Shown here: piece after piece, positions 4,185-48,379 of the stretch
Position numbering within the stretch: the stretch's first letter is position 1
Layout: each line of letters begins with the position of its first letter
From: Tomocerus qinae
Lineage: Eukaryota; Arthropoda; Collembola; Entomobryomorpha; Tomoceridae
Assembly (NCBI GenBank): GCA_020055645.1
Contig: CM034546.1
Location: forward strand, 28,210,001 to 28,274,000
DNA length: 64,000 nucleotides
Reading direction: 5' to 3'
Translations under genes and position numbers: made by a program
The notes under the pieces: model-generated
Databases searched by the model: none
Told to the model about the DNA's origin: nothing
Seen by the model: only the letters and a program-made list of their open reading frames with translations

Positions 4185-7100
4185 CTACAAAATACCCACA
4201 GATTTGGCATATGACAGGAACTTTTGAGCTCCGTCATAAGAGCTACCAATTCTATCAGAGATATTTGGAATTACCTTCAGGATTTTCTGGCTAAATTTGG
4301 TGTCCATTAACGTACCGTTGAGAAAATGCTTTGCCATGTAGATATTATCCATGAAAAGGGTAGATATGAAATCTTTGCTAAAAAATGAGAGTGTCCCATC
4401 TTCACCTACATGTTGTTGCAGTGTTTCAATAATTTCATCTTGGCTAACAATCGTCAATTTGTATCCTAGACCGGAAACTATATCTATAAATTCATTGACA
4501 TTTATGGTATTTGTGTGTATCAGATTGTACATTTCTGAGTCAACATTGTCATTAAACAGAAAGTCCATCGTTAATTCAGCAGCTATATCTGGAGACATAA
4601 AAGACCAGCCTCTTTCGCTATTACAAATAATGCCCAACTTTATTGCTAACAGAAATGCATTAACTACAAAATCCGACCCGATACTTAAATATCCTGTTAC
4701 ACTGTTCCCAGCTATATTTGGATATCGAATTACAATGCAGGGGATTCCTCTAGAAACAGCTTGCCCAATTAATTTTTCGCCAACAAACTTAGTTAAACAA
4801 TAACCTAAGGCTATTCCTTCCCCGTTATTTTCATCATCAGGAAATTCTTCATAGGCAAACCCATCCCTATTCAATTTATTTATGGCTGAAACTGACGAGG
4901 AGTAAAATACTCGTTTTGTTTTAATATTTGCAGCAAATCTAAGGACATTAATTGTACCAATGACGTTGACTGATCTCATATCAGTTGTATTTGTAGACGG
5001 GCTAAAATATTCGTCAAGGAAATTTACTTTGGCTGATATGTGATAAATAGCATCCACGTCTCGGGATAAAGAGTTATACTTTTCCATTGGAATTCCCAAT
5101 CTATCCTGGGTCACATCGCCTATTACTACTGAAATTCGATCAAGGTTTATTGTCAAATTATATTTATTAAGGTTTTTAATTAATCTTTTGTAGGCTAGAT
5201 CTGCAGTTGAACTTCTAACCAAACAAATGACGGAGATAAAGGGTTTTTTCAATAGATTTTCAAGCATATGCGCACCTAAATGTCCTGTTCCTCCTGTTAA
5301 AAGGACTTTTCGAATCTGACTTGCTTTTACGTAATTTCCACTTCCTCTGATATCTTCTGGCAGAATTGAATCTTTTTTAATTAATTTTTTCAATTCATCC
5401 TTATCAATTCGATGAATTATTGGTTCCGAACTTACTTCAACCTTCCCCAAAATTAAATTAGTTAAGTGTTCACTTAATTTACTGATATTTGGATAATCAA
5501 CTAACATATTATCACTTAATGGGAAATTGTCTCCCATTAAAGATTGCAGTTTGTTCTTTAATTCTACCGACATGAGCGAGTCTAATCCTATTTCATAAAA
5601 CATTTCATGGTCATTTATCTGCTCTCTCTTTGGTATTTTTAATATATCTTTAATTAAACTACCTAGTAAATCTTTAAAATATACTTTTCTATCAGAAACT
5701 TCCAGAGATTTTATAGTTAGCAACAAATTCTCTGACTTCAAACCACTTGTATCCCCTCTTTCACTTTTTCTAGTGTTATTAAGACGCTCTTGGAAATATT
5801 GTTCTAAGACAGGAGACAGATAGCCATCTTCTTCCACATATAACTCAGCTACCCCAAGTTGAACCAAGTTGGGTCTAGACATTACAAACTGTAGACCTCT
5901 AATACCTTGGTCAGGATTAAAAGGGTAAATTCCAGGAATTTCCATATTAGTGGCCGCACCAACATCTGACCAGGCACCCCAGTTAATAGACTGAGCGGGC
6001 AACCCAATCGAATGGCGGTATCGAGCAAATGCATCTAGAAAACAATTTGCTGCGCAATGATTACTTTGTCCAGGTGGTGCAACTATTGCAGCGGTTGAAG
6101 AAAATAGCACAAAATGTTCCATTTGCAAATGTTTTGTCAATTTATGCAAATTTAGGCAACCTTGGATTTTAGTATTAAAAACAGATTGATACTTTTCCCA
6201 GGTTTGATTGGCAAATATTGCATCAGAAAGAACTCCTGCAGAGTGAATCACGCCTTTTAATGGGGGCAATGATAACTTATCTGAATAAATTGTCTGAAAC
6301 AAATTTTCACATTGTTGCATATTTCCTACATCTACTTGAAATGATAAAGCACGACAGCCTTTACTTCGCATTGTTTCTAAAGCAGTAAGTGTTTGTGAAT
6401 TTGGCACTGATCTTCCTATTAGTATCAAACATCCAGCACCGTAATCTGCCATCCATTTAGCCACTTCTAAACCAATTCCTCCTAATCCACCGGTTATTAG
6501 GTATGTGGCATTTTTACTAAACAAAAATTCTTTTGTCTGTATCTGACAACCAATATTTGAAATGTGGGGCATTGATAAAACAATTTTACCAATATGTTGG
6601 GCTTTCATGAAATAGTCTAGAGCGTTTTTTACATCTGTGATGTCAAATCTAGAATACGCAATGGGCTTGATTATGTCTTTGTTATAGACAACTTTTATAT
6701 TTTCTGCTAAAGCAACCGGTTCCACTATTTCCAGATCAACAATTGTGTATGCTACATCCGGCCTCAGTTTTCTGACATGATCTGGTTGCCAAATATTTAC
6801 TTTTCCTATTTCGACAAATCGGGCATTCTTTGCACAATTTTCAAGTGTTGTTTCTTTGAAGCCTTCGCTGGTCAATGAATTCAAAACCACGTCTACTCCT
6901 ACACCGTTTGTTACTTTCTTTATTCCTTCACCGAATGACAGATCCCTAGAATGAAAAATATATTGCAATCCAAGTGATTTAAGGTAAGACCTCTTTCTTC
7001 GACTTCCCGCGGTAGCTATAATTATTGCGCCAATATATTTGGCAATTTGAATTGCAAATAATCCTACACCTCCAGATGCTACGTGAATTAAAATCGTTTC

Positions 7101-10100
7101 ATCCTTTTTCAACTTTGCAACTGTAACAAGACAATAGTGAGCTGTTAGATGACAAGCTGGAATCGTGGCCGCTTCAAAAATGTTAAAGTGTGACGGTTTA
7201 TGGTAAATTGCACTTGTTTCCTTTTGAACTGTATGACTCGCGGCAGTACATAAACCAAATCCACAAACTTCATCCCCTGGTTTAAATTTCGTTACGCGAG
7301 AACCAACTTTAGAAACAATTCCGGCAAAATCAGAACCTACGTTATCATTTAAACTTTGAAATCCATCAGGTTTCATTATAACAAGGATGTCTCGAAAATT
7401 AAGTGACATTGCCTTAATTACAACTTCGACGTCATCCTGTTCCAATTTGCAAATTTTATCAGGCATAAAGCTGACATCTGCAATTGTTTTTGTTTTAGGT
7501 AGTTTGAGTTTATATCTTCCTTTTGGGAGATTTAAAATTTCGTTGTCATCCCTAAATTCCACATATCGAGGAACTAATTTTTTACCTTTCCTATAGCAAC
7601 CAAAGCTTGTACCAGAATGAAAACATTCAAAAAATATTTCTTTCGCTTTACTTTCTTCCTCAACACCATCAGGATCCATATCTATCAGAGATATAGACAA
7701 TTTTGGAGCTTCATTTATAAGACTTTTAAACATTCCCCAAATTACAGATCCTGAAGGAAGAACATTTATCTGATTCGTTGTGTACACTGCGCCTCTAGTC
7801 ACAACAACTAACTTGACATTAGGATTTAGACTTTTGAGACTTTTAGTAAAATATTTACAAAAGTTAAGAGCTTTCATGTACAGCTCGTTAGTATTACTAA
7901 TCTCATAGAATCTCTTAGAATCGATTGGCATTAAATAAAGTATTCCACAAACGTCATTTAATTCCATTATTGTATTTAATTCCTGAGTAAACTGAAATTC
8001 TTCTAGCATGTCCACAAATTGTACAGATTGGTTTCCAGCATTTGAATTGGATTTCAAACCGTGTTTCAGAGTCTTCACGTTCTGTCCATTTTTTAATAAT
8101 AATTTGATCACGCTTTTGGTAAAACATTCGTTTTCGCAAAATATAAGCCAAGTCTTTGACTTGATTGATACAGAAGATAAATTAAGTTGCTTTTTGGTCT
8201 TGGCAGCTAGGACGGATGAACTCTCAGCGTCATTTGATAATAGACTTGACAATTCGAAATCATTTTCAGACAGTACTCGATCCCAAATTTGTTTAGACAC
8301 CATTGGATTCGTAGTCCTCAAATCATAGTCTCTAAATTTCCAATAACTGTCTAAAATACCATAAATGACATCTATTAGCCTACTAGGTAGTAGAACCTCT
8401 TGTAAGAGCAACATTCCTCCGTCAACCAACAATTTTCTAATATTTCGTACCGATACCCTTAAGTTCTCCGTTGCATGAATTACGTTTGAAGCGAGGACAA
8501 TATCATAATGATGTGGGCAAAATCCTTGTACGGATGGATCTTTTTCAATGTCTAAAACTTTGTAGTCAACCATTTCAAAACAAGAAAGTTCCATTTTAGC
8601 ATTCTCAAAGAATTGAGAAGAGATATCTGTGAAAGTGTATTGGCAAGAAATTTCACTTTGCTCCAGAGCCTCTAAAACCTTCATTGAAGTAGCCGCACTT
8701 CCTCCTCCGATCTCAATTATGCGAACAACTGCTCTTTCTTTTGATTTAATTTCACCGAGGATTAAACTAAGGAATTTTGCCATCCTAATGTTAGCCAAAG
8801 AAGCATCTAAACCTTTTGTATAAAAATCTAAGATATTCATATCTTTTCTACCAAATAATGCAGAGACAGGTTCAACCTTCTCTGTTACTACATTCCACAA
8901 ATTGTTCATGCATTTGTCTAGTAGCTCTAAATCTACAGGCAATTTAATTTTTAGTGTCTTCCGTAGATTCTTTAATTCAAGTTTGATTTCGTCACTAGAA
9001 GGAAATCTCCTCACGACTTTCCAATCAACGCAATCTTTTCCATTTTGAATAATATTTCCATCCTCAATAAACATCTCAATTATACGGTCGAATAATTTGA
9101 TATGGTTAAGGGAAACTAAATTATCGACCATAATGGATGATGTACAATAGATTTCTCCTAACTTCAGAAATATTCCATTTGCATTAAAAATTTCTATCAA
9201 TCTTAGGTAAATATAATGGTCGCGTAGATTGCGTACTGCAGGATCATATAAACCATATTCTTTTTCTATGGACATTTCCAAAGCCGGGATAATATCAGCA
9301 TAATCTTTCAAATCGTTCATTTCTATCCGAGATTGAAAAGGACCTAAACAAGGAGACCAAATCTCTTCATATAAATCTGGTATTGATTTTTTCTGCCCGG
9401 CTATTGAATTCAGAAATGAACCAATAGCCTTGGACACAAAACGGACACCAACCATCAAAAATAATAAATTGAAGTCTTGGCCTAGTAAAGAAACAGTTCC
9501 ACTTTTGCATTTGGCATCCCAATTCGCATGTACATAAACGACGTCAGATAGTATTCCACCAAAGGCGTAGCAATTTTCTATCCCCACAGGACGACACAAT
9601 GTTTTGTCTTTGATTTCCATACCCATTAATACCATCGATTGCAACATCGAATCTAATACAATAGGATGATAAATATATTCTTCTAAATTCCAATTTGAAT
9701 GTTTTATAGGAATAGCTGCAAAAGCTTCGTTTTCCAACAACAAAATCGATTCTACGCTTTGAAATGCTTCTCCGAATGCATAACCACTCTTCTGTATTTC
9801 ATTATAGAACTGGGTGCTCTTAGAGGAACTTGGGTCTTTTAATCCCTCTTTAAAGCTTTCCAAATTTTCACTTGTTACTTTTGATTTTGTATCTTCTTGT
9901 AGTAATGTTACTGTCCCACTTGCATGTTTTTTCCACCCATGTAATTTATTGAAGATGTAGATACCAACCACCACCAAATCATTTTGGCCTTCCAGTGGAG
10001 TCGCAATTGTCTGCATCTCATATTGTTTTCCTTCCTCCATCTCAAATGTGCATTCAAGAATAAAATCTTTAACATGCAACTGCATTGAATGATTTCCAAT

Positions 10101-13100
10101 TTGTAACATATCATTTCCCACAGCTAAAATAATTTCCAAGAATCCAGCACCTGGCATAATAACAAGATTTGCCACTTGGTGGTCTTTGAGATATGCAAAC
10201 TCCGTCAGACTCAAATGATTTGTGTATATAGTTTCATTTTTGTTAACTAATGAAACTTTCTTTCCTAAAAGTGGATGGATTGTGTTGTTTTCCTTTTTCT
10301 CGGGTGTATTAACCCAATATTTCTGTCTTTGGAATGGATATGTCGGCAACTCTAATTTCTTTCTATTTTCTGGAGGGTATATTGAAGACCAATTAATATT
10401 CGTCCCGTTTAAATATAACTTCCTTAAGCTATCTAATAAAGTTTCCCAGTTATCTTTATTCTGCTGGAGAGTTGGAAGCCAAAGTGCATTTTCAACGACA
10501 GCATTCTTAACTCCCAAAGCTAACAAAATAGGCCGAGATCCTAATTCAATAAAAGTATTGCAGCCATTTTCAGCAAGAGTCTGCATTCCTTTTTGGAAAT
10601 TAACTAGATCTCTAGCATGTCTAAGCCAATATTTCCCATCTTTCATTTCATCTGTTGCCAAAAGTGATCCAGTAGTTCCAGAAACATATTGGCAACTTGG
10701 AGTTTTATATTTTATTTTATTTGTGACGTGATTAAACTTCGAAAGAATTCCTTCTATATCCTGGGAGTGGAATGCATGAGGGGCTGCTAAAATCTTTGAA
10801 CGAATTTTATTTTCTGTGCAGATTTGTTGGAATTTTTTCAGAGATTCCATCCTTCCCGCTACTACAATATCTTCCGGAGAATTAACCACAGCTATATCTA
10901 ACCATTCATTTCGATTACTTTGGGAAAATTCTGTAATCAATTTTCCAGCTTTCTCTTTGTTACAATGAATAGCCAACATTCCACCAGATGGCAATTCGGA
11001 TATTAGTTGACTGCTTTTAGTTAGCAAAGTCAGAGCATCTTCAAGATCAAGGATTCCAGACGCTACTGCAGCTGCAAATTCTCCGATACTGTGACCCAGT
11101 ACAAAATCTGGTTTCACATTTAAACTAAAAAATAGTTTTAAAAGGGCGAATTGAAGACAAAATATTGATAATTGACACGGTACGCATTTCTGTATTAAGG
11201 ACCCGCCTTTGTCTCCCCATAAAACATCTTGTATTATTATGCCGGTCTCCGTTTTAATAATATTTGCACACTTGTCGAAGTAACTTCTAAAAATACAATT
11301 ACTCTTATACAAACCATGACCCATTCCTAAATACTGGGAACCTTGCCCAGGGAAGAGAAATGCGACTTTCAATGTCTCTTTATATACAGGACGGGCGAAG
11401 CTTTTAGTATTCAAAGCTTCTGCTAAATCAATATTGTTTTTTCCCATGAAACTTGATCTGTAATTAAAATGTGCCCTGCCATTATTAGTAGTGAAGCATA
11501 AATCTTCCGTGTCAATTTCTGGGTTTTCTTCTAGAAAGCTTTTATAACGGTTCACTAATTTACCCAAAGCATTTTCGTTTGTCGCAGACAAATTCAAAAT
11601 GTGATGGGTCATTTCTTCGTCAATAGTATTGCTTTTAATTGGGCTTAATTCATTTTCTACTGGTGGTTCTTCTAAAAGGACGTGAACATTTGTCCCACTA
11701 ATTCCAAACGAGCTAACACCTGCTATTCGAGTTCTTTCATTATTTCTTTTCCAAGGTTGTTGATCTAATGGAATAATGGCCGGAATGGATTCTAAATTGA
11801 TACTTGGATTGAGAGTGTCAAAATTCAGGTGGGGTGGAATGGTTTCATGCTTCATTGATAGAATTACTTTAATAATACCCGCCAACCCAGCAACTGATTC
11901 AGTGTGCCCGATGTTAGTCTTTACAGAGCCAATAACTATAGGCTTTTCCCTTTTTGCAGCATAACATGCCGACAAAGCTGCAAATTCCACCGGATCTCCA
12001 ACTGGAGTTCCAGTCCCATGTGCCTCTAAATAATCGACTTCTTCAGGGCGAACTCCTGAATTTTTAAGAGCTTCCCTAACAGCTATTTCCTGGCATATTT
12101 TACTCGGAGTTCCAAAACTAGACGAAGTTCCTTCGTTACTCATCCCACTCCCTCTGATAATTCCTAATACTCGATCTCCATTTTTGACTGCTTCAGGTAG
12201 TCGTTTCAATATGATGACCGCAATTCCTTCAGCTCGTCCAAATCCATCTGCCTTTTCATCAAAAGTTTTGCAATGACCATCTTCAGAAAAAATTCTAATT
12301 CCTCCTGCATCAATGGTAACTATGTTTGCTCCCATCACCAATGCCAAATTCGTTTCTTTTCTTTTTATACTCTCACACGCTAAATGTAAAGCGACCATGG
12401 AAGACGAGCATCCAGATTCAGTTGCAATGTTTGGTCCATTGAGACCCAAAAAATAAGCAATTCTAGAAGAAGTTGCAGAAAAGGAATTTCCAAAGACAAC
12501 ATTGTTGAATGTATTTGTTAGTGTATTTGCTTTCACTAGTCTTTCGTATTCCATTTTCCAAACTCCCGTGAATACTCCAGTGTTGCTCCCTTTTAGTGAA
12601 TGTGGATTGATTGCTGCATTTTCAAGGGCCTCCCATGCTACTTCCATCAATAATCTTTGTTGGGGATCAATCGTCTCTGCTTCTCTTGGACTAATTCCAA
12701 AGAACTTGGCATCAAATTCATTAATTGGACATTTCAGAAATCCTCCGTGCATTTCCTTTACCTTCTTCTTGTCTACATCAAAAAGTTCATAACGTTCCTC
12801 GGGAGTTGGTCTAATTCCATCCCCGCCGTTTATCAGTAATTCCCAAAACTCGTCAATATTATTTGCTTCTGGAAAGCGACAACTGTGTCCAACAATTGCA
12901 ATAGAATTTTCGTGGTAATTTTGCCGGTTTAAAATTACGTTGTTCAGCCTTAACGGAGATTTCTCATGGGAATTGCCACAGGGCATATCAATTTCACGTT
13001 GACAGGTATCCCAAAGTTTGATTATTTTCTGTCCAAAACAAAAAATGTCAGGCTTATGAGCAAAAATATATACCAGTCTAGTCTTATAGTGCCTGACCTC

Positions 13101-15515
13101 AACTTAGGATACCGCAAATGCTAAAATAAACGCCGCGTCATAATTATTATCTCGGGCACATTTAGTATAGCATTTACGGTTAGTTCAAAGGTATAATTGA
13201 AAAACTAAGAGATAGTGAAACGAGTATTTGAATTTTACTTGAATTTCGGCATCTCCCTCCAAATTCGTTTTAGACGGTGCAACAATCTTAAGCTTTTGCA
13301 ATTCTCTATTACAATAAATAATTTATTAAATTCCCAGTGGAAACAAAAATGTCATTTATAAATTAAATACCGTTGTTCGGTGTATTTAAGGTCCTGGTTA
13401 TACATCCTATGAATTTGTAATGGCGTTTCATTGATAAATACGTCACCACAGGGATCAGTGCACAATTGGGACCCTAAAATAATACATATATTATTATTAT
13501 TGTTTGTCTTGAGTTGAAATCTAGAATGGGATTCGAAAGTGAAAACTTACAAGTGAAGTGTTGTAAATTTTTAAGCTTGAGTAGTTTATTATAATGTCCC
13601 GAATTTGGTTTGATTACAAAAAGTTGGGGGAATTTTAGATTTTGTGTTTCAGACGCATCTGTGATGTAATACTCCTTTTCGATGTCGAACAAATCGTCAC
13701 AATTTTGTAAAACCTGTTTCAGAAAAAATCAATTATAATTATCGTTTCTAAAATTGTACTAATATTTCCCAATATTTGTTTGGCCATATCTAACTAAAAT
13801 AATCAATCCATATGAAACCATGTTAGAAAAATTCAGTTCCAGCCGTCCTTCAAGTTTACCTTTAACATTCTTAGGACTATCGTAAACGGCTATCTTCTTA
13901 ATCTATAATGCATACCGTCCAGCAAACAAGGAAAAAGAAATAAATATAAATACAATTTTAATTAGGTTGGGTTAGGTTAAGTTGAACCTATGGGTTCCAA
14001 CTCAGTGTACAAAATACCATTTACCAATTGTAAGTGGTTTTAATGGCATTTAATGTTATTTACCACTTCCTAAAAATTGATGGTATAATTGGTAAGAAAT
14101 GGTAAAAATAGTTTTCTTTAAATTTCCTATAAGATAGGGATTTCTGGGTAAATAGAAAAAGGTTTTTTGTGAATAAAAAAGGCGCTAATACATAACACAC
14201 CTTTGTAGCTGACGACTGTTGACACAAATCTAATAATTGTAATGTGTGTTAATTAACCCAAGGAAAAATTCAACTAATTGGGAAATCGTCCTTATTTACT
14301 TATTGAATAATAAAACAAACGTTGGCTGTAACAAGCAAATACATGCCCTTTAAATGACATTTTTCGCAACTGTCAGTGAAAATTCAATTATAAAAATTAA
14401 TTTGAAATATTTTAGAGAAAATAAACGTGAGCATGGACACTTTTGTGATGTGTATTTTGTGTATCTCAGCTAATTATTCACTATAATTTACCATTTTAAT
14501 CATTTTTTACTATTAAGTGTATTTTTACCTTTCGTGATGGTAAAAAAGGCAAAAAAATGGTAAATTTTGTACACTGGAAGAACCACAATTCCCAAAACAG
14601 CTTTAATATTTATACGGAAAACAAAACAAATTCTAACGATTGCAAATAAATTTTTAATGATTAGATATATGCACGAAAAATACAAAGTTTAAAACACTAT
14701 TCAAAATTTTCTTCTTTTACTATCTTTGTTTTAAGCAGCAAATAATTTAAAAGAAAGGTAAAAGAAACACCTAAAAATCAAAAATTCTAAACATCGGCCT
14801 CATTTTAGTTTGGCTGTCGGGACGCCTAAAAAAATAACCTACCCCCTCTGTTTTTCGATGGTTAAAATATTTTATTACCTTGATATTTTGATCAATGATG
14901 GCAATGCTTGTGTACATTTCCATGTTAATGGCATACATTTTCAAAATATCTATTGCTTGAAAATTTCCTTCCCAGCAGTTTTGATTTAAATTCACTTCAA
15001 TAACCGAATCAAAACATTGAGCTAAAAGTTGCCTGAAATTGAAAAAACTTTTAACGAATATTTTAAAATTTGGAAATTAAGCATTAAAATTTTGTGTGTG
15101 CAATACCGAGGCTTAATTCCCAGGTCGCTATCAATTAAAACAACGGTATTTGCTAGCGTAATGACTTGTGCAAGTGATTTTCCCAAAATTGCAGCTTGAA
15201 TTGTAGTCTCCTCATCATTGGCTGCGGTAATCCACGCATATCTGGAACTTCCTACATAAATCAATGAAATTTAATCATAACGATTTCCTATAAAACCTCT
15301 TTTTTGATGACGTCTGTATGTATAAGAGGATAACAAAGTTTTTAATGACACTTAGTACAAAAACCTACACTTATATATTTTTATGTCCGATTGCTAAAAT
15401 GTGTAACTTACTCACTCTCCTCCATCTTGTCTGCGACATGGTCCTACCTCAATACCCGATTGCTTTCCATTATATTTTATGTATAAAAATTAAAAGAATT
15501 CTTACCGAGTTTCAT
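4185..15515 (-). CDS. PKS-A: GT8-like/KS-AT-DH-cMT-ER-KR-ACP-R polyketide synthase, intact
   Basis: Rebuilt as seven exons: 15506-15515, 15107-15251, 14879-15032, 13551-13713, 13371-13473, 13239-13305 and 4185-13028. Donors are GTAAG, GTATTG, GTAATA, GTAAGT, GTATTT and GTAAAA; all acceptors are AG; phases agree; total 3161 residues. Domains (approximate residues): GT8-like 1-230; KS 256-668 with active Cys421 in ESGCSSS, plus EAHGTGTPVGDP and NIGHTES; AT 765-1060 with GHSIGE (Ser861) and AFHS, typical of malonyl-CoA; DH 1132-1418; cMT 1468-1768 with EIGGGSAATS; ER 2058-2368 with HVASGGVGLFAIQ; KR 2388-2616 with TGGLGGIG but GQSNHCAAN, His at the usual catalytic Tyr (2538); ACP with GLDSLMS (Ser2698); R 2778-3161 with TGGTGHLGAH and YCLTK. 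The expected activity is iterative chain extension, C-methylation and reductive release as aldehyde or alcohol. The KR may be inactive. It is not a fatty acid synthase: it has cMT and R and lacks TE. The product is unknown. Confidence 0.9.
13239..15515 (-). other. N-terminal glycogenin-like GT8 domain of PKS-A (six short exons)
   Basis: The six short exons encode 214 residues that follow the glycogenin fold in order. RYAWITAANDEETTIQAA then LGKSLAQV matches the glycogenin N-terminal strand and helix. VVLIDSDL is the next strand. LLAQCFDSVIEVNL matches the segment VFDEVIMVDV. ILKMYAINMEMYTSIAIIDQN then VLQNCDDLFD matches the stretch around MDADTLVLANIDDLF. LFVIKPNSGHYNKLLKL matches VFVYQPSVETYNQLLHL. 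The metal-binding DxD is DQN here, the FNSG motif is lost, and no glycogenin-type acceptor tyrosine is evident. The exon containing ELQKLKIVAPS corresponds to the AKVVHFLG strand, and IIKLWDTC at the start of the large exon to the terminal helix. I infer a non-catalytic or repurposed GT8 fold fused to the PKS. Confidence 0.75.
14003..14575. mobile_element. Small TIR element in PKS-A intron 3
   Basis: The left end begins CAGTGTACAAAATACCATTT. The right end, read on the minus strand, begins CAGTGTACAAAATTTACCAT. These terminal inverted repeats bound about 570 bp with no coding potential and many variants of the motif 'TGGTAA'. It lies in the third intron of PKS-A and does not touch splice sites. 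I see no clear target-site duplication, so the class is open; a non-autonomous DNA transposon (MITE) is most likely. Confidence 0.55.
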
Positions 15516-16876: not shown

Positions 16877-19800
16877 TTATAAAATACCCACAGATTTGGC
16901 ATATGTCAGAAACTTTTTGGCTCCGTCATAAGAGCTGCCAATTCTATCAGCGATATTTGGAATTACCTTGAGAGTTTTCTGGCTAAATTTTGTATCCATT
17001 AACGAACCAGTGAGAAAATGCTTTGCCATGTAGATATTATCAGTGAAAAGGTTTGATAAGAAATCTTTGCTAAAAAATGAGAGTGCCCCATCATCACCAA
17101 TGTGTTTCTGCATTGTTTCAATAATTTCATCTTGGCTAACAATCGTCAATTTGTAGCCTTGATCGGAAACTATATTTATAAATTCATTGACCTTTATGGT
17201 ATTTGTGTGTATCAGATTGTACATTTCTGAGTCAACATTGTCATTAAACAGAAAGTCCATGGTTAATTCAGCAGCTATATCTGGCGCCATGAAAGACCAG
17301 CCTCCTTCGTTTACACAAATAATACCCAGCTTTATTGCCAGCAAAAATGAATTGATTACAAAATCTGTCCCAATACTAAAATATCCTGTTACGCTATTTC
17401 CAGCTATATTTGGGTATCGAATGACAATGCAAGGGATTCCTCTCGAAATAGCTTGTCCAATTAATTTCTCACCAACAAACTTAGTTAAAGCGTAACCCAA
17501 GGCTAATCCTTCCGCATTATTTTCATCATCAGGAAATTCTTCATAAGCAAACCCATCGGCATTTAATTGATTTATGGCTACAATTGACGAAGAGTAAAAT
17601 AGTCGTTTTGTTTTAATATTGCAAGCAAATCTTAAGACATTAATTGTGCCCAGAACGTTGACTGATCTCAAATCAGTTTTATTAGGCGACGAATTCCAAT
17701 ACTCGTCAACGAAATTTACTTTGGCTGATATATGGTAGATAGCATCTACTTCTCGGGATAAAGAATTGTACTCTTCTAATGCCATTCCCAACAGATCCTG
17801 TGCCACATCGCCTACCACGACAGAAATACGGTCAAGGTCTATTGTCAAATTGTACTTTTGAAGATTTTTTATCAACCTTTTGTAAGCTAGTTCTTGAGTG
17901 GAACTTCTAACCAAACAAATGACGATAATAAACGGCATCTTTAAAACATTTTCAAGTATATGTGCACCTAAGTGTCCTGTTCCTCCTGTTAAAAGAATTT
18001 TCCTAATCTGACTTGCTTTAACAAAATTTCCACTTCCTCTGATATCTTCTGGCAAAAATGAATCTTTTTCAATTAATTTCTTTAATATATCTTTATCAAA
18101 AAATTCCGTTTCAGAATCTATAGTCGTCTTTTCTAATATTATGCAAGTTAAATATTCACTTAACTTGCTAACGTTTGGATAGTCGGTTAATGTATCTGCC
18201 CTTAATGTTACAGTGTTTCCCAATATAGATTGCAGTTTGTTCTTTAGTTCTACCGACATAAGTGAATCTAATCCCATTTCATAAAACATCTGATGTTCAT
18301 TTATTTGTTCCCTCTTTGATATTTTTAATATATCTTTAATTAGGCTGCATAATAAATTTTTAAAATAAATTTTTCCATCCGTAACATCCAAAGATTTTAG
18401 ATCTTTCAATAATTGTTCTGAGTCCAAAATACTTGTATTCCATGTTTTACTTTTGTCGGCGTCATCAAGATCTTCCTGGAAATATTCTTCAAAAATAGGG
18501 GTCAAATTGCCTAACTCTTTCAAATTTATTTCCAATGCACCAAGTTGGACTAAGTTTGGCCGGGACATTGCAAACTGCAGAGCTGAAATTCCTTGACCAG
18601 GATTAAATGAATAAATTCCAGAAACGTCAAAATTAGTGGCCATACCAACATCTGACCAAACTCCCCAATTAATAGATTGAGCGGGTAATCCAATCGAATA
18701 GCGGTATCGCGCAAATGCATCAAGAAAACTATTTGCCGCACAATGATTACTTTGTCCAAGTGGAGCAAATATAGCAGCCATGGAAGAAAATAGCACAAAA
18801 TGTTCCAGCTGTAATTGTTTAGTCAAATTGTGCAAATTTAGGCATCCTTGGATTTTAGCATTAAAAACAGATTGATACTTTTCCCAAGTTTGATTGGCAA
18901 ATACTGCATCGGAAAGAACACCCGCAGAGTGAATCACGCCTTTTAATGGAGGCAATGATAATTTATCGGAATGAATTTTCTGAAACAAGTTTTCACATTG
19001 TTGCAGATTTCCTACATCTACTTGAAACGGTAAAACTCGACAACCTCTACTTCGAATTGTGTCTAATACAATTAGTGCTTCAGAATTTGGTGCTGATCTT
19101 CCTATTAGTATCAAACATCCAGCACCGTAATCTGCCATCCATTTAGCCACTTCTAAACCAATTCCTCCTAATCCACCGGTTATTAGATAAGTGGCATTTT
19201 TACTAAACAAAAAGTCTTTCGTCTTTACCTCACAACCAATATTTGAAATTTCGGGCATTGTTAAAACAATTTTACCAATATGATGGGCTTTCATGAAATA
19301 ATTTAAGGCGTTCCTAATGTTTGTGATGTCAAATCTAGAGTACGCAACGGGCTTGATTATGTCTTTGTTATAGACAACTTGAATATTTTCTGCCAAAGCA
19401 GACGGTTCAACTATTTCCAGATCAACAATTGTGTATTTAACATCAGGTCTCAGCTTTCGGACATCTTCTGGTTTCCAAATATTTACTTTTCCTATTTCGA
19501 CAAATCGGGCATTCTTTGCACAATTTTCAAGTGTTGTTTCTTTGAAGCCTTCGCTAGTCAATGAATTCAAAACTACATCCACTCCATTACCATTAGTTGT
19601 TTTCTTTATTCCCTCACCGAATGAAAGATCCCTAGAATTAAAAACATACTGCAATCCAAGTGATTCAAGGTAACACCTCTTTCTTCTATTTCCTGCGGTA
19701 GCTATAATTCTAGCGCCAATATATTTAGCAATTTGAATAGCAAATAATCCTACACCTCCAGAGGCTACGTGAATTAAAACAGTTTCATCCTTTTTCAACC

Positions 19801-22800
19801 CGGCAATTGAATCGAGGCAATAATGTGCCGTGAGATAACATGATGGAATTGCGGCCGCTTCAAAAATGTTGAAGTGTGACGGTTTATGGTAAATTGCACT
19901 TGTTTCCTTTTGAATAACATGACTACCTGCGGTGCCTATACCAAATCCAAAAACTTCGTCACCCAATTTAAACCTTGATACACGAGAACCAATTTTAGAA
20001 ACAATTCCAGAAAAATCGGTACCCACTTCGTCATTTAAACTTCGAAATCCATCAGGCTTCATTATAACAAAGATGTCTTTAAAGTTAAGTGATATTGCCT
20101 TAATGATAACTTCAACATCTTCTGGTTCCAATGGGCAAATTTTGTGGGTTGTGAAACTGACATCCGCAATTCGTTTTGTCTTAGGAAGCTTGAGCTTATA
20201 TCTTCCTTTTGGGAGACTTAGAATTTCATTATCTTCACTAAATTTCACAAATCGAGGTACAAATTTTTTACTTTTTCTATAGCAATAAAAATTGCGACCG
20301 GGATGGAAACATTCAAAAAATATTTCTTTTGAATTATTTTCTATATCAACTTCATCGGGATCCATATCTACTAGAGATATAGACAATTTTGGTGCTTCAT
20401 TCATGAGACTCTTTAACATTCCCCAAATTACAGCTACTGAAGGAAGAACATTTTCCTGATTCGTTGCATACACTGCGCCTCTAGTCACTACAACTAACTT
20501 GACATTAGGAATTTGGCTTTTAGTAAAATATTTACAAAAGTTAAGAGTTTTTATATACAGTTCGTTTGTATTATCATTCTCTGAATCTAGCGGTATTAAA
20601 TAAAGCATTCCACAAACATCATTTAATTCCAGGATTCTATTTATTGCTTCCTCAAACTGAAATTCGTCTAACATGTCCACAAATTGCTCAGTTCGGTTTC
20701 CAGAATTTGAATTGGATTGCAAACCATGTTTTAAAATTATGACGTTATGTCCAATATTTAACAATAATTTTGTCATCCTTTCATATAATACCCCGCTATC
20801 TGAAAATACAAGCCAAATATTTGAGGCTGATCCTAAGGAAGGTAAATGATGACGTTGCACGTTAGCTTTGGCAGCTAGAACTGACGAACTCTTTGGGTCA
20901 TTTGTTGTTAGACAAGATAATCCAAAACCATTTTCAGTCAATACCCGATCCCAAATTTCTTTAGATACCATTGGATTAAGTTTTCTCAAATCGTAATCCC
21001 GAAATCTCCAATAACTGTCCAAAATACCAAACATGGCGTCTGCAAACCTCCAAGGTTGTATAAACTCTTGTAGTAACAATATTCCTTCGTCAATCAACAA
21101 CTTTCTAACATTTGCTGCTGCTACTCTTAAGTTCTCCGCTGCATGAATGACGTTAGAAGCGACAACAATATCATAATGATGTGGACAGAAGCCTTGTGTA
21201 GATGGATCTTTCTCAATGTCTAATATTTTGTATTCTACCATTTCAAACGACGACAGTTCCTTTTTAGCATTCTCAAAGAATTGGGCAGAAACGTCGGTAA
21301 AGGTATATTGATAAGAAATTCCATTTTCTTTAAAAGCCTTTAAAATTACCATTGAGGTTGCTGCACTTCCTCCACCAATTTCAATTATGCGAATAATGGG
21401 TTTGCCTTTGCTAGATTTAAAATCACTTAGAATTAAACAAAGGAATTTTGCCATCCTTATATTAGCCAAAGAAATATTTAAACCTTTAGTGTACAGATCT
21501 AATATATTTATATCGTTTCTACCAAATAATGCAGTTATAGCGTCAACCTTCCCGGTTACTACATTCCACACATTGTCCATACATTTGTCAAGTAACTCTA
21601 AATCTACTGGAAGTACCATTTTTATTGCCTTATGCAGGTTTTCTAATTCCAGTTGAATTTCATTTCTAGAAGGAAATGCTTTAACCACTTTCCAATCCCC
21701 GGAATCATTTTGGACAATATTTCCGTCCTCTATAAACATCTCAATTATACGATCGAAAAATTTTAAATGGTTAATGGAGACTAAATTATCGACCATGATG
21801 GTTGATGTACAATAGGTTTCTCCTAACGTCAGAAATATTCCATTTTCATTAAACATTTCTATTAATCTCAAATGAATGTAATGGTCAAGTAGATTTTGTA
21901 CTGATGGATCATATGACTCCAAAGCCTTCTCCATAGAGATTTCTACAGATGGAATAATGTCAGCAAAGTCTTTTATACTTTTCATGTCTATCCGAGATTG
22001 CAGAGGACCTAAACGTGGAGACCAAATTTCTTCATATAAATCAGGCATTGATTTTCTCTGTCCGGCAATTGTGTTCTGAAATGAACCGATTGTTGTAGCT
22101 ACGAAATGTACACCAACCATTGAAGATAATAAATTGAAGTCCTGATCGTATAACGAAACGGTACCACTTTTGCTTTCGGCGTCCCAATTTGCATATGCAT
22201 AAACAACATCAGATAGAATCCCGCTGAAGGCGTAGCAGTTTTCCATCCCTACAGGAAGCCACAATTGTTGATCTTTCATTTCCATCGTTATCAATGCAAT
22301 TGACTGTAGCATTGCATCTAATACAATTGGATGATAAATATATTCCTCTAAATTCCAATTTGAAAGTTTTATAGGAATAACTGCAAAGGCTTCATTTTCT
22401 AACAACCAAATTGATTCTATACTTCGAAATGCTTCTCCAAACACAAAACCTTTCTTCTGTACTTCGGTATAGAATACATCGGAAGAATTTGTGTCCTGTA
22501 ATCGCTTTTTAAGGCTTTCAACATTTTCACATAAAAATTTCAATTTTATATCTTTATCCTCTAATAATGTTACCGTCGCACTTGCATGTCTTTTCCATCC
22601 ATGTAATTTATTGAAGATGTGAACACCAACCACCAGCAAATCATTTTGGCCTTCCAGTGGAGTCGCAACTACCTGCATCTCATATTGTTTTCCTTCCTCA
22701 AAAGAAAACGCATATTCGAGAATAAAATCTTTAACTTGTATCTCTTTTGAGTTATTACCTATTTGTAATAAATCATTTCCCACAGCTAAAATAATTTCCA

Positions 22801-25800
22801 AGAATCCAGCACATGGCATAATAACAAGATTAGCCACTTGGTGGTCTTTGAGATATTCAAACTCTTTCAGGTTTAAATTATTTGTGTATACAGTTTCACT
22901 TTTATTTACCAGTGAGACCTTTTTCCCTAAAAGTGGATGAATTATATTAATTTCATGTTTTTCTGGGATATTAATCCAATATTTCTGTCTTTGGAATGGA
23001 TATGTCGGCAATTCTAATTTCTTTCTATTATCTGGCGGGAATATTGAAAACCAATTAATATTCGCCCCATTTAAATATAAACTTTTTAAGCTTTCTAATA
23101 ACACTTCCCAATCATCTTTATTCTGCTGGAGAGTTGGAAGCCAAAGCGAATTTTCAACGACAGCATTCTTAACTCCCAAAGCTAACAAAGTAGACCAAGG
23201 TCCTATTTCAATAAAAGTATTGCAGCCATTTTCAGCAAGAGTCTGCATTCCATTTTGGAAATTAACAGGGTCTCTAGCATGTTTAAGCCAATATTTCCCA
23301 TCCTTCATTTCATCTGCTGTCAAAAGTGATCCAGTAGTTCCAGAAACATATTGACAACTTTGAGTTTTATATTTTATTTTACTTGTGACGTAATTAAACT
23401 TGGAAAGAATTCCTTCGATATCCTGAGAGTGGAATGCATGAGGAGCTGCTAAAATCTTACAACGAATTTTATTTGCTGTACAGATCTTTTGGCATTTTTT
23501 CAGTGATTCCATTCTACCTGCTACGACAATTTCTTCTGGACAGTTGAACCCAGCTATATCTAACCATTCATTGCGATAATTTTTGGAAAATTCCGAAATC
23601 AATTCTGAAGCTTTCTCTTTAGAGGAATGAATGGCCATCATTCCACCGGGTGGCAAATCAGATATTAGTTGATTGCTTTTAGTTAGCAAAGTCAAAGCAT
23701 CTTCCAGATCAACAATTTCTGATGCTACTGCAGCTGCAAATGCTCCAATGCTGTGACCCAATACAAAATCCGGTTTCACACCTAAACTAAAAAGTAATTT
23801 CAGAATTGCATATTGAACACAAAATATTGATAACTGACACGGTGCACATTTCTGTAATAAAGACCCATTCTTGTCTCCCCATAAAACGTCTTGTATTATT
23901 ATGCCTGTCTCCGTTTTAATAATATTTGCACACTTGTTAAAGTAACTTCTGAAAATACAATTACTCTTATACAAACCATGAGCCATTCCTAAATACTGGG
24001 GACCTTGCCCAGTGAAAAGAAATGCTATTTTCATTGTTTCTTTAGGTACAGGACAGGCAAAAGTTTTAGTTTTAAAAGCTTCTGTTAATTTTGAAATGTC
24101 TTTTTCAATGAAACTTGCTCTGTAATTAAAATGTGCCCTGCCATTATTAGCAGTAAAGCACAAATCGTTGATATCAACTTGTGGATTGTTCATTAGGAAT
24201 TCATAGTAACAGTGAACCAATTCATAGAAAGCTGTTTCTGTTTTGGCAGATAAATTGAGTATATTGTACGCATTTTCTTACTCCTTAGAGTTGATTACGA
24301 CTGAGCCATATTTATTATCGTTAGGAGGTTCTTCTAAAAGGACGTGAACATTTGTTCCACTAATTCCAAAGGAGCTTACACCTGCTATTCTGACTCTTTC
24401 CTTATTTGATTTCCAAGGTTGTTGATCTATTGGAATAATGGCAGGAATTGTTTCCAAATCTATATCTGAATTAAGAGTGTCTAGATTTCGGTGACTTGGG
24501 ATGATTTCGTTTTTCAATGATAGAATTATTTTAATGATACTGGCTAATCCTGCTACGGATTCAGTATGCCCTATATTAGTCTTTACTGACCCAATAACTA
24601 AAGGCTTTTCCCTTTTGCTAGCATAACATGCCGACAAAGCTGCAAATTCTATCGGATCTCCAACTGGAGTTCCAGTCCCATGTGCCTCCACAAAATCGAC
24701 TTCTTCAGGGCGGACTCCTGAATTTTTAAGGGCACCTCTAACGGCTATTTCCTGACACATTTTACTCGGAGTGCCAAAACTAGACGAAGTTCCTTCGTTA
24801 CTTATGCCACTCCCTCTGATAATTCCCATTACCCGATCTCCACTTTTTACTGCATCAGTAAGTCGTTTTAATACGATGACCGCAATTCCTTCAGCTCGGC
24901 CAAATCCATCTGCCTTTTCATCGAATGTTTTACAATGACCATCTTTCGCCAAAATTGGAACACCTTCTTCAAGTATTTCAATTATGTTTGCCCCCATCAC
25001 TAATCCTAAGTCTGTTTCTTTCCGTTTCAAACTCTCACAGGCTAAATGCAAAGCGACCATGGAAGATGAACATCCAGATTCAGTTGCAATATTTGGTCCA
25101 TTGAGACCCAAAAAGTTTGAAATTCTAGCAGAAGTTGCAGCAAATGAGTTTCCAAGAATGATATTGTGAAATGCTTTCGTTGGTGTATTTTCTTTCACTA
25201 GTCTCTCATATTCCATTTTCCAAACTCCCGTAAATACTCCAGTGTTGCTCCCTTTCAGAGAATGTGGATTGATAGCTGCATTCTCTAAAGCTTCCCAAGC
25301 TACCTCCATCAATAATCTTTGTTGTGGATCAATCAACTCTGCTTCTCTTGGACTGATTTCAAAAAACTTGGCATCGAATTCATCGATTGGACATTTCAGA
25401 AATCCACCTTTGAATTCAACATACTTTTTCTCGTCTAAATGAAACAATTCAAAACGTTCCGCCGGAGTGGACCTAATTCCATCTCCGCCTTTCATTAATA
25501 ACTCCCAAAACTCGTCAATGTTATTTGCTTCTGGAAAGCGACAACTGTATCCCACAATTGCAATAGAATCTTTGTAGTAGTAATTCCGCCGGTTGAAAGT
25601 TCCGTCGTATAGTCTTAATATGGAGTGTTCATGGGAATTGCCATGTAGCATAATATTAATGTCGGACTGACACGAATCCCAAAGTTTGGTTATTTTCTGT
25701 AATCATAACAAATCATTGATCGGCTTTTAGCAAAAATCGTGGTCAGTCTCACACAAATGTTTGCTATGGTATCTGTATTTAGACTTAGACTATGCTTAAA

Positions 25801-28359
25801 TGTGTAAATGAAAAATATAAATTTGATTTGATTTTTATACTTGGATTCCAGTATCTTCACCAACAGTCAATTTTGACGATTGAATGATTTTAACGGTTTG
25901 CAACTCTCTAATAAAATAAAGGATTATTAAAGTTCAATTGAAAACTAAAAAAACACTTACTATGTTTAAAAAATTAAATACCGTAATTTGGTGTAATTAA
26001 GGTCAACACTGTAGATTCTGTCCAGTTTAAATAGTGTTTCCTTGCCAAAGACTTCACAGGAATCAGTAAACAGATGGGACCCTAAAATAACATTCAACAG
26101 GCATACTGTGTATATAACTCTTATTAATTTGCAATTTTGGATAAAAATATTTAAATAATATATAAACTAACAAGAGAAGTGTTGTTTATTTGTGATGTTG
26201 AGGATTTTATTATAAACTTCCGAATTTGGTTTTATTACAAGCAAAGAGGGGAAGTATTGTGGTTCATACGCATCCGTCATATAATATTCCTTTTCCAGAT
26301 CGAATAATTCGTCGCAATTTTGTAAAATCTGTTTACAGAAATATTAATATTGCCTAATGATTAATGATATAGCTTTTTCTACACGGCGGCACCTTACAGA
26401 TATTCAAAACTCTTTTCCGTTTTTAAGTATATATTATTACATTATTAGGCTAGGTTAAAGTGGTGTATTGTATGCATAATTCAATGCTAAATAAAGTTAT
26501 AATAATCTTTTGAGTATAGTGTTGAATACATTTTATGTTGTGATAGGACACGACAATCAGGAATTAAAACTTGCATTGTGAAACTGATTCAACTAAATAT
26601 TTGTTATGGATTTTAAAACATAATGATTACCTTGCTTTTTTGACTAACGATCGCTATCTTGGTATACATTTCCATATTAAAGGCCCATATTTTCAAAAGA
26701 TCTATTGATAGCAAATTTGGGCTTAGGCAGTTTTCATTCAAATCTATTTGAACAACCGAATTAAAACATTGAGCCAAAAGTTGACTGAAATTTAAAAAAA
26801 ACATTGGCGATTATTTGTAAATTTGGGGTTAAATCATTTAAATGTTGTGTGAACAATACCGATGCTTAACTCCAAGGTCACCAGGAATTAAAACAACGGT
26901 ATCTGCCAAAGTTATGACTTGTGCAAGTGATGTTCCCAAAATTGCAGCTTGAATAGTAGTCTCTTCATCCATGGCTGCGGTAACCCAAGCATATCTGAAA
27001 CCTCCTGTATAAACCAATGGAATTAATCATAATTTTAAAAATATTGGAAATAGTTGTGCCTATATATAAACATATTACCATGTAAGTATGTAAAATTTAT
27101 TACCTATTTGAGTTTTTATGTAGTAGTTTTTAATTAACCATTTTGCAAGCTACTTATACCTTTTAGCACATTTCCAAAATGCCCAGGACATATTATGTAA
27201 TTTTAGAAACCAAAATTTTGATTTTGATCAAATCTAACGTCATTAAAATTAATCACACTTACTTGAAAGTACATTTGACAGTCAACAAGTGGTTTCAAAT
27301 TAGGTTGGATTAATTAAAAATGAAAGTTTTTGTTTCTGAAAATACATCCTAGGCATAGTATGTCCATTCTGTACCTACTTTCCTGTGACATTTATTAATT
27401 TTTTTTACACCTTTGTTTATACACTTTTTATGATTTGATTTTAATATTTATGTGGTGTTAGTGTTCAATGAGAATTTAGTTAAATATTGATCATCACTCT
27501 ATAGTGTAATCGTGTTGTTCGAGTTGCGAAATGAAAAATTCCGTAGGTATATTTGTTTATATCACCGTGCGTTAATTTTCCGCTGTGATAGCGCAGCTAA
27601 GCAGACCTCAATCTTAAACGTTGCCGAAATCTGGTAAATCCCAACAAGTCCGTATATTTCATAACAAAGCAGTTCATGCGTTCTTTATGCAAATATTTCC
27701 AGGACATCGGACAGTTTTCCAAAACAATAGTCAATACACCTATCAATGTAAAATATCTACCTCTCTACCACTAAATGAGAGACCATGAAAAGTTCAATTA
27801 GAAAAATCAATCTGAAATACTTTCTTCTCATCGTACAATATTGTCCCTGGAATACACACTAGCTTTATTTATAACAGGGCCTAGGTCCTGTGACCGGCTA
27901 GTTACATTGTAAGCATGATATACTTTGATACGGAATCGTTTGCTCAGTTACAAAAGAGCGATAATAGAAACTTGCAACTAGTTCACTTAAAGTACACGGT
28001 TTAAAAAATATTCTACATTCTTTTATGTAAATTGAGGGAAAATCTGAATCGATTAGTAAATTGCATTAGTCAAGATACATTCGATTGCTAGGTTCTTATC
28101 AACGTATTATCTTGATTTATATCAATTTCTTAGAAATGATGCTGATTGCTGAATTATTTCTTTCCTAAGATCCTACTGAGTCACTTACTCTTAAATTTTA
28201 ATGATATTTAGTACAGAAACCGCTACCTATTTTTTAAATATACGATTGCTAAAACTTGTTACTTACTCTCCTCCGTTACTTGATCTTATCTCACTATACC
28301 TGATTGCTTTCATTATAATTATGTACAAAAATAAAAGGATACTTACCTTGTAGTTTCAT
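16877..28359 (-). CDS. PKS-B: GT8-like/PKS paralogue with one in-frame stop codon
   Basis: Seven exons by the same logic as PKS-A: 28347-28359, 26860-27004, 26631-26784, 26172-26328, 25982-26081, 25841-25907 and 16877-25696. That gives 3151 codons, open except for one TAA at 24278-24280, in the linker between KS and AT; the frame resumes directly with ENAYNILNLSA. The KS (Cys codon 25070-25072), DH, cMT (EIGGGSAATS), ER (HVASGGVG), ACP (GLDSLMS) and R (TGGTGHLGAH, YALTK) motifs are all present. The AT motif is GHSIGA, not GHSIGE, with the nucleophilic Ser kept. The KR has His at the catalytic Tyr (18742-18744), as in PKS-A. The GT8 DxD position reads SQK. Intron 1 is 1.3 kb and carries a transposon end near 27830-27900. 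Alternatives for the TAA are recent nonsense mutation, assembly error, readthrough, or two polypeptides; a single lesion in nearly 9.5 kb argues against old decay. Confidence 0.75.
24278..24280 (-). other. In-frame TAA in PKS-B
   Basis: On the minus strand the codons read AAG GAG TAA GAA AAT GCG. The homologous region of PKS-A is a sense stretch (IDEEMTHHILNLSA). Frame before and after the stop is identical, and there is no splice donor nearby that would remove it cleanly. Confidence 0.85.
27830..27902 (-). repeat. Transposon-end repeat in PKS-B intron 1
   Basis: The roughly 70-bp segment, containing GGAATACACACTAGC and the small hairpin ACAGGGCCTAGGTCCTGT, occurs in opposite orientation at 45365-45440. 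It ends in GGCTAGT on this strand. The hairpin near a CTAGT-type end recalls Helitron-like termini, but that assignment is weak. Confidence 0.45.
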
Positions 28360-30319: not shown

Positions 30320-33300
30320 TTATAAAATACCCGAAGATTTGGCATATGACAAGAACTTTTTAGCTCCGTCATAAGAGCTACCAATTCTTTCAGTAATATT
30401 TGGAATTACTTTCAGGATTTTCTGGCTAAATTTTTTGTCCATTAACGCACCTGTAACAAAATGCTTTGCCATGTAGATATTATCAGTGTAGAGGGTCAAT
30501 AACAAATCCTTGCTAAAAAATGATAGTGCTAGATTGTCACCGATGTGTTGCTGCATGGTTTTGATAAATTCATCGTCACTGACAATTGTCAAATTGTAGC
30601 CTAGATCAGAAACTATATTTATTAATTCTTTGACCTTTATGGTATTTGTATGTATCAGATTGTACATTTCTGAGTTAACATTGTCATTGAACAGAAAGTC
30701 CATCGTTAATTCAGCAGCAATATCTAGTGACATGAAAGACCATCCTTCTTCGTTATTACATATAACGCCCAACTTTATTGCCAGCAAAAAGCAGTTAATT
30801 ACAAAATCTGTCCCAAAACTAAAATATCCTGTTAAACTGTTCCCAGCTATATTTGCATATCGAATGACAATGCAAGGAATTCCTCTAGAAATGGCTTGCC
30901 TAATTAATTTCTCGCCGATGAACTTAGTTAAACAATAACCCAAGGCTATTCCTTCCCCGTTATTTTCATCATCAGGAAATTCTTCGTAAGCAAACCCATC
31001 GCTATTCAATTTATTTATAGCTCCAATTGACGAGGAATAAAATATTTATTGTACCCAGAACGTTCACTGATCTTAAGTCAGTTGTATTGGGAGACGGGTC
31101 CCAATACTTTTCAATGAAATTGACTTTGGCAGATATATGGTAGACAGCATCCACGTCTCTAGATAAAGAGTTATATTTTTCTAATGGCATTCCCAACATA
31201 TCCTGAGCCACATCGCCTTTTACTACAGAAACTCTATTCAGGTCTACGGTCAAATTATATTTTTTAAGATTTTTAATCAGTCTTTTGTAAGCTAGTTCTG
31301 GAGTGGAACTTCTAACCAAACAAATGACGGTAATAAAAGGTTTTTTCAAAAGGTTGTCAAGCATATGCGCTCCTAAATGTCCTGTTCCACCTGTAAAAAG
31401 AACTTTGCGAATCTGACTTGCTTTGACATAATTTCCGCTTCCTCTGATATCTTCTGGCAGAAATGAATCTTTCCTAATAAATTTTTCTAATTCATTCTTA
31501 TCAATTCCATTAGCTTTTCGTTCTGAACTTGATTCAACCTTTCTTAATATTAAGTCAATTAAATGTTCACTTAACTTACTAACACTTGGATAATCAACTA
31601 ATATATTATTACTTAAAGTGAAATTGTCTCCCATTAACGATTGCAGATTGTTCTTTAATTCGACTGACATGAGCGAGTCTAATCCCATTTCATAAAGCAA
31701 TTGATGGTCATTTATCTGTTCTCTTTTTGGTATCTTTAGTATATTTTTAATAATAGTACCTAGTAAATCTTTAACATATATTTGTGCATCTGCAACTTTC
31801 AATGATTTTATATCCTCCAATAATTGCTCTGACTCCAAACCGTTCCATTTTTTCCTTTTATTGGCGTCATCAAGATTATCCACAAAATATTGGTCTACAA
31901 CTGGAGATATAGTGCCAGCTTCCTTCTTATTAAAATTCATTACTCCAACTTGAACCAAGTTGGGTCGAGACATTAGATACTGTAGAGCAGAAATACCTTG
32001 GTCAGGAGTAAATGGATAGATTCCAGAAAATGTGGAATTAGTAGCCGCACCAACATCTGACCAGGCACCCCAATTTATGGATTGTGCGGGCATTCCAATC
32101 GTATGGCGATAATGAGCAAATGCATCAAGAAAACAATTAGCTGAACCATAATTACTTTGCCCAGGTGGTGAGAATATGGCAGATATTGAAGAAAATAACA
32201 CAAAATATTCCATTTGCATATATTTTGTAAAATTATGCAAATTAAGGCAACCTTGGATTTTAGCGTTGAAAACAGATTGATACTTTTCCCAAGTTTGATT
32301 GGCAAATATTGCATCGGAAAGAACTCCTGCAGAGTGAATCACGCCTTTTAATGGGGGCAATGATAACTTATCTGAATGAATTGTCTGAAACAAATTTTCA
32401 CATTGTTGCAGATTTCCTACATCTACTTGAAATGATAAAACACGACAGCCTTTACTTCGAATTGTGTCTAATACAATAAGCGTCTGTGAATTTGGTGCTG
32501 ATCTTCCTATTAGTATCAAACATCCAGCACCGTAATCTGCCATCCATTTAGCCACTTCTAAACCAATTCCTCCTAATCCACCGGTTATTAGATAAGTGGC
32601 ATTTTTACTAAACAAAAAGTCTTTTGTCTTTACCCCACAACAAATATTTGAAATTTTGGGCATTGATAAAACAATTTTACCAATATGCTGGGCTTTCATG
32701 AAATAGTCTAGAGCGTTTCTTATATCTGTGATGTCAAATGTAGAATATGCTACCGGCATGATTATGTCTTTGTTATATACAACCTTAATATTTTCTGCTA
32801 AAACCGCTGGTTCAACTATTTCCAGATCGACGATTGTGTATTTAACATCAGGTCTCAGCTTTCTCACATCTTCTAGTTGCCAAATATTTACTTTTCCAAT
32901 TTCGACAAATCGAGCATTTTTTGCACAATTTTCAAGTGTTGTTTCTTTGAAGCCTTCGCTAGTCAATGAATTCAAAACTACATCCACTCCGTTACCATTA
33001 GTTGTTTTCTTTATCCCCTCACCGAATGAAAGATCCCTAGAGTTAAAAATATATTGCAATCCAAGTGATTTAAGGTAACACCTCTTTCTTCTACTTCCTG
33101 CTGTAGCTATAATTCTCGCCCCTATATGTTTTGCAATTTGAATTGCATAGAGTCCTAAGCCTCCAGATGCTACGTGAATTAAAACTGTTTCGCCCTTTTT
33201 TAAATTGGCGACTGTAGCGAGGCAGTAATGTGCAGTTAGATGACATGACGGAATTGTGGCAGCCTCAAATAAAGTAAAATGAGACGGCTTATGGTAAATT

Positions 33301-48361: not shown

Positions 48362-48379
48362 CAGGAACGGCCATGGAAC

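Follow-up and report, generated by a model that had tools for sequence, protein, structure and literature searches.

Horizontally acquired polyketide synthase (PKS) genes are already known in arthropods. The part of one source available to us describes arthropods as having few or no PKS and cites one horizontally acquired case (PMC10764717), and the available part of another credits the springtail Folsomia candida with 30 type I PKS clusters (PMC5490193). It is rarely visible how a bacterial megasynthase comes by its promoter and introns and finds its place in the animal cell. Here we describe a locus in the collembolan Tomocerus qinae where this join seems legible exon by exon, in three copies. 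The stretch analysed, hereafter the window, comprises 64,000 nucleotides (assembly GCA_020055645.1, contig CM034546.1, positions 28,210,001 to 28,274,000), and all coordinates below count from its first letter. On its minus strand, from 15515 to 4185, lies gene 1 (copy 1), which begins with a region similar to glycogenin, of glycosyltransferase family GT8, and continues as a PKS. We consider it reasonably probable that a bacterial-type PKS was fused behind animal glycogenin exons, that the fused gene was tandemly triplicated and that its product carries an N-terminal pseudo-GT8 cap.

The PKS of F. candida resemble gene 1: they are type I, occur in an arthropod and are considered products of horizontal acquisition (PMC5490193, PMC10764717); however, the available parts of these papers mention no GT8 fusion, and the main text of PMC10764717 does not use the word 'glycosyltransferase' at all. 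With animal glycogenin, represented by human GYG1, gene 1 shares residues ~5–150, the place and phase of intron 2 and a short first coding exon, but it differs in lacking the DxD motif, in a loop shorter by 7 residues, in an unrecognisable C-terminal half and in the fused PKS. With bacterial reductase-terminated type I PKS (NF045894; CurL; the reductase of MxaA) it shares KS-AT, tailoring domains, ACP and a thioester reductase (R) domain, whereas it is spliced behind animal-type exons, is A+T-rich, lies in a genome with introns and, in copies 1 and 2, carries a His in KR. Arthropod AFPK have a domain order like that of fatty acid synthase (FAS), as does gene 1, and a few of them have R domains, according to the part of PMC10764717 at hand. 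AFPK group with animal FAS in one clade, whereas the KS-AT of gene 1 points to bacterial PKS, as judged by bit scores against FAS chains rather than AFPK sequences. No description of a glycogenin–PKS fusion was found in the searches made of an open-access library.

Spliced together, the seven exons of gene 1 give one uninterrupted reading frame of 3161 codons, across six introns that are all GT-AG, bearing out an earlier reading of the stretch (the original prediction) in which six short exons join the PKS exon in phase. Exon 1 (15506..15515, minus strand, as are all exons and domains given here) reads ATGAAACTCG and ends in phase 1; its ATG, GTAAG donor and upstream sequence are kept in copy 2. 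Two other ATG–donor candidates for this exon, at 15439 and 15425, are not conserved in copy 2. Exon 2 (15107..15251) encodes the glycogenin N-terminal strand and ends in the second base of Arg52, exon 3 (14879..15032) holds the site of a degenerate DxD (DQN), and exon 4 (13551..13713) is glycogenin-like up to about residue 153. Exon 5 (13371..13473) has identical phases in the paralogues, its glycogenin similarity being undetectable when taken alone, and exon 6 (13239..13305) measures 67 bases in all three copies. A single exon of 8.8 kb, exon 7 (4185..13028), encodes a linker of ~40 residues and the entire PKS.

Two further copies lie on the minus strand. Copy 2 (16877..28359) has exons at 28359-28347, 27004-26860, 26784-26631, 26328-26172, 26081-25982, 25907-25841 and 25696-16877, while those of copy 3 (30320..39644) lie at 39644-39500, 39426-39273, 39107-38939, 38814-38721 and 38657-38591, followed by a broken PKS exon from 38382. 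Exons 2–6 are 145, 154, 163, 103 and 67 bases long in copy 1, 145, 154, 157, 100 and 67 in copy 2, and 145, 154, 169, 94 and 67 in copy 3; exons 2, 3 and 6 are equal in all three, and every difference in length is a multiple of 3. Phases are identical across exons 2–7 in the three copies, and the exon 6/7 junction is in frame in each. Exon 1 of copy 2 (28359-28347; ATGAAACTACAAG, donor GTAAGT) is 3 bases longer than that of copy 1, in phase, and lies within sequence that can be aligned to copy 1 (600 columns, 70% identity); a candidate at 27391 was dropped in favour of this exon, which aligns with copy 1. In the ~7.4 kb upstream of copy 3, no homologous stretch was found beyond short matches, the longest being 61 bases that adjoin exon 2.

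The claim that the three paralogues show one arrangement holds for the phases of exons 2–7, but their equivalence as whole genes is not confirmed. Copy 2 contains a single in-frame TAA (24278-24280) in the KS-AT linker, its frame being otherwise open over 3152 codons including the final stop; this TAA may mark a recent loss (pseudogene), belong to one allele or stem from a sequencing error. In its AT and DH motifs, copy 2 also departs from copy 1 at a few residues. Copy 3 is without the stretch that matches residues 355-575 of copy 1, which includes the KS Cys and the first His; four separate open pieces are what is left of its PKS exon, and its exon 1 was not found.

The same arrangement could arise from two adjacent transcription units, a degenerate glycogenin gene made of exons 1–6 and a PKS gene that starts from an ATG in exon 7. 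Such an ATG is present, in frame and just ahead of the KS, and in copy 1 the frame of exon 7 continues without a stop for 25 codons ahead of the acceptor. However, in copies 2 and 3 this frame reaches back only 2 codons from the acceptor, the junction of exons 6 and 7 keeps the frame in every copy, read-through beyond exon 6 is terminated at codon 18 in copy 1, codon 2 in copy 2 and codon 4 in copy 3, and the order is identical in the three tandem copies. We regard two separate units as quite improbable and expect that exons 1–7 would be joined in one transcript. Rfam and tRNA scans gave no match, and a sigma-70 promoter scan near exon 1 returned 11 matches against a mean of 10.0, the level of chance.

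We next turn to the origin of the N-terminal region. As a single sequence, the N-terminus of gene 1 is similar to glycogenin-1 at E=1.2e-6 among solved structures, and a profile of the three paralogues finds glycogenin-1 in the same set at E=8e-13. The similarity spans residues ~5–150, with 28–31% identity in the alignment with human GYG1. Residues ~129–255 searched alone gave no glycogenin match, and the Pfam GT8 model PF01501 matched none of the three N-termini. Thus, the expectation that a profile search would recognise GT8 held for the three-copy profile and failed for the Pfam model, and the 'full small GT8 fold' of the original prediction is unsupported where the similarity stops, near residue 150. 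As far as the sequence tells, the first half of a GT8 domain is clear, while the second half appears either diverged beyond recognition or replaced.

The exon boundaries were compared with those of human GYG1 as given in the available parts of published sources. The human variant c.143+3G>C sits in intron 2 (PMC13258228), and because c.143+3 is intronic, the last base of human exon 2 is the second of codon 48. With numbering taken from Asp102 of the DxD motif, the human Arg at the end of exon 2 aligns with Arg52 of gene 1. In the codon for Arg52, the exon 2/3 junction falls between the second and third bases; both the aligned Arg and the phase are those of human intron 2. Human Asp102 is encoded in exon 3 (PMC5203857), and the aligned place in gene 1 likewise falls in exon 3. 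Human c.487 (Asp163) is located in exon 5 (PMC13258228); its counterpart, extrapolated to about residue 161 from an aligned human piece that stops at 155, lies just within exon 5 of gene 1, which starts at residue 158. Since p.Asp3Glufs labels both c.143+3G>C and c.7G>C, we infer that human exon 1 ends at c.7, which suggests that it ends in phase 1 like the 10-base exon 1 of gene 1. The coincidence of the exon 2/3 junction with the place of human intron 2 indicates that the GT8 exons of gene 1 are probably animal glycogenin exons. A chance similarity to glycogenin was rejected on the E value of 8e-13 together with the shared intron place.

The catalytic motif of this region has been lost. The DxD place reads DQN in copy 1, SQK in copy 2 and NQK in copy 3; in copy 1 the Asp102 place is retained and the second Asp is gone. 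Compared with glycogenin, a loop is shorter by 7 residues and the first strand differs. As DxD is lost in all three copies, the N-terminal GT8 part is probably a pseudoenzyme. It had been proposed that the domain binds a sugar nucleotide; in such a case, it would still bind a UDP-sugar or glucan, and either glycosylate the polyketide or anchor the enzyme to glycogen. The places of Lys86 and Asp125 are indeed retained in all three copies, and we take these residues, with GGDQG and Tyr195, to be functional in glycogenin. Against this stand the degenerate DxD, the altered first strand, the 7-residue deletion and the undetectable C-terminal half, which weaken the proposal to the point that we consider sugar binding very improbable. 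In human glycogenin-1, altering Asp102 alone abolished autoglucosylation according to the available part of PMC5203857, although copy 1 keeps Asp102.

Coding constraint was estimated from the ratio of nonsynonymous to synonymous substitution rates (dN/dS). For the GT8 exons, dN/dS is 0.45 between copies 1 and 2 (60 bootstraps, 0.33-0.66), 0.42 between copies 1 and 3, and 0.38 between copies 2 and 3; between copies 1 and 2, the PKS domains range over 0.17-0.26 and the linker gives 0.47 (0.21-0.98). With 150 neutral simulations of copies 1 and 2 per setting, the observed dN/dS or a lower one was reached in none at kappa 1, in one at kappa 2 and in five at kappa 3, and the 52 transitions against 69 transversions in the upstream stretch favour the lower kappas. 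The constraint on the GT8 exons thus seems real, yet below the level of the PKS.

These values bear on whether the GT8 part is merely a tolerated leftover, in which the PKS relied on the promoter and start codon of glycogenin, while the encoded domain does nothing except leave the PKS unharmed. Constraint about half that of the PKS (0.45 against 0.17-0.26), the lost catalytic motif and the unrecognisable C-terminal half would all be expected of a leftover. On the other hand, the observed dN/dS lies below at least 145 of the 150 neutral simulations in each set, and the frame has been kept through exon length changes in three copies; the need to keep the frame and a foldable chain would by itself partly explain both. 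On balance, a harmless leftover appears unlikely. The converse, in which the host's glycogenin became a pseudoenzyme module at the N-terminus that the horizontally acquired PKS needs for dimerisation, placement or glucan/UDP-sugar sensing, is put forward tentatively, as a possibility that we would not yet favour.

The PKS part was examined with Pfam, which finds KS, AT, DH, C-methyltransferase (cMT), ER, KR, ACP and R on exon 7, in agreement with the predicted order KS-AT-DH-cMT-ER-KR-ACP-R. KS (11817..12908) contains its Cys and two His, AT (10401..11360) contains GHSIG and HAFH, and DH (9558..10277) contains its His and Asp motifs. The cMT core lies at 8409..8717, ER at 6576..7439, KR at 5964..6509, ACP, with GLDSL, at 5463..5666, and R, nearest to MxaA, at 4611..5300. 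The KS, KR, AT, DH, ER and R motifs are read in their usual roles, HAFH being taken as a malonyl signature. Motifs of KS, AT, DH, cMT, ER, ACP and R are all found in copy 1, and one chain of gene 1 carries the KS Cys-His-His, the AT Ser and the ACP Ser.

The exception is KR. The place of the catalytic Tyr (residue 2538) is occupied by His in copies 1 and 2 (NHCAAN) and by Tyr in copy 3, while Tyr stands at this place in all 115 motif matches among proteins found with residues 1-600 as query. The description of gene 1 as a 'complete reducing' PKS therefore needs correction. Because KR, DH and ER are constrained between copies 1 and 2 (dN/dS 0.21-0.24), the reductive cycle is, by this measure, not simply abandoned despite the His.

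Similarity searches place the PKS with bacterial enzymes. Among the best 60 of 88 matches, KS-AT scored 616 bits to CurL, 380 to norsolorinic acid synthase and 279-291 to FAS chains, which we take to be bacterial, fungal and animal, respectively. The best NCBIfam model for KS-AT, which alone was submitted, was PKS_plus_SDR (NF045894), at 819 bits, below its full-length cut-off of 1740, and the R domain scored 213.2 bits to Thioester-redct, just below the cut-off of 213.35. By these scores the PKS is of bacterial type. An AFPK origin was rejected on bit scores only, the KS-AT score against bacterial PKS being roughly double that against FAS chains. In the protein collection, a query of residues 1-600 gave 2,991 scored candidates, of which 2,947 passed; the matches were dominated by KS and, among the 120 listed, were bacterial or metagenomic wherever a source was named, so that this query is uninformative on GT8 fusions. 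Searches of the same collection for the GT8 region found none among 610 candidates at E<=10 within the long query and none among 90 at E<=0.1 when the region was used alone. Within this collection, no second species with a GT8–PKS fusion came to light. Viral contigs gave no KS-AT match, and 0 of their 57 matching stretches matched the GT8 alignment; genome contigs gave five bacterial loci at 26–34% identity, which were not used further.

An 8.8-kb exon behind six small ones is most simply explained by horizontal gain of the PKS and its joining to exons of glycogenin. In this history, a bacterial-type reductase-terminated type I PKS gene would have been gained horizontally and remained a single exon. 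Joining the 5' exons of an animal glycogenin, probably those of a duplicated gene, would have supplied it with a promoter, introns and an N-terminus; the glycogenin–PKS unit would then have been tandemly triplicated. The glycogenin-derived part would be translated as an N-terminal domain that has lost its catalytic motif and apparently also its C-terminal catalytic half. Glycogenin is a homodimer, and the domain would most likely fold into a pseudo-glycosyltransferase that caps the KS dimer, serving folding, dimerisation or placement rather than sugar transfer. The PKS would extend with malonyl-CoA and methylate the chain, which R would set free as an aldehyde or alcohol.

The fusion proposed in the original prediction is thus supported by exons 2–7, phases and frame conserved three ways, by coding constraint and by the place of human intron 2. 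Several observations weigh on the other side. Descent from a host glycogenin gene draws on a single exactly known human intron position. Only one of the three copies, copy 1, is intact, and the 701 bases before exon 2 of copy 3 hold no exon 1 candidate. The ATG of exon 7 makes a PKS-only transcript possible, and the 25 open codons before the acceptor in copy 1 fit such a start. In addition, the GT8 part is less constrained than the PKS domains, the linker value is hardly distinct from 1, and at kappa 3 the simulations still yield 5 of 150.

If glycogenin was recruited as such a needed module, it would represent a kind of N-terminal domain new to PKS, and host exons would have made a bacterial megasynthase an animal gene. 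The outcome, a PKS with an N-terminal glycogenin-derived domain, would exemplify a pseudo-glycosyltransferase in the service of a PKS and, from the predicted product, an animal that makes a methylated polyketide in aldehyde or alcohol form.

Other features of the window were also recorded. Beside the PKS array, exon pieces of GMC oxidoreductases lie at 54016-62276 on the minus strand; five of the six pieces tested match GMC families, and two sets of C-terminal pieces indicate at least two copies. A retrotransposon without long terminal repeats (non-LTR; a long interspersed nuclear element, LINE), with endonuclease and reverse transcriptase, occupies 47684-51658 on the plus strand and is preceded by an open reading frame of 225 amino acids without a Pfam match. 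Both the GMC array and the LINE are compatible with an arthropod source. Finally, a self-inverted repeat of ~100 bases is common to the spacer between copies 2 and 1 (15916-16017) and the stretch upstream of copy 3 (41074-41173), and looks like a small mobile element.

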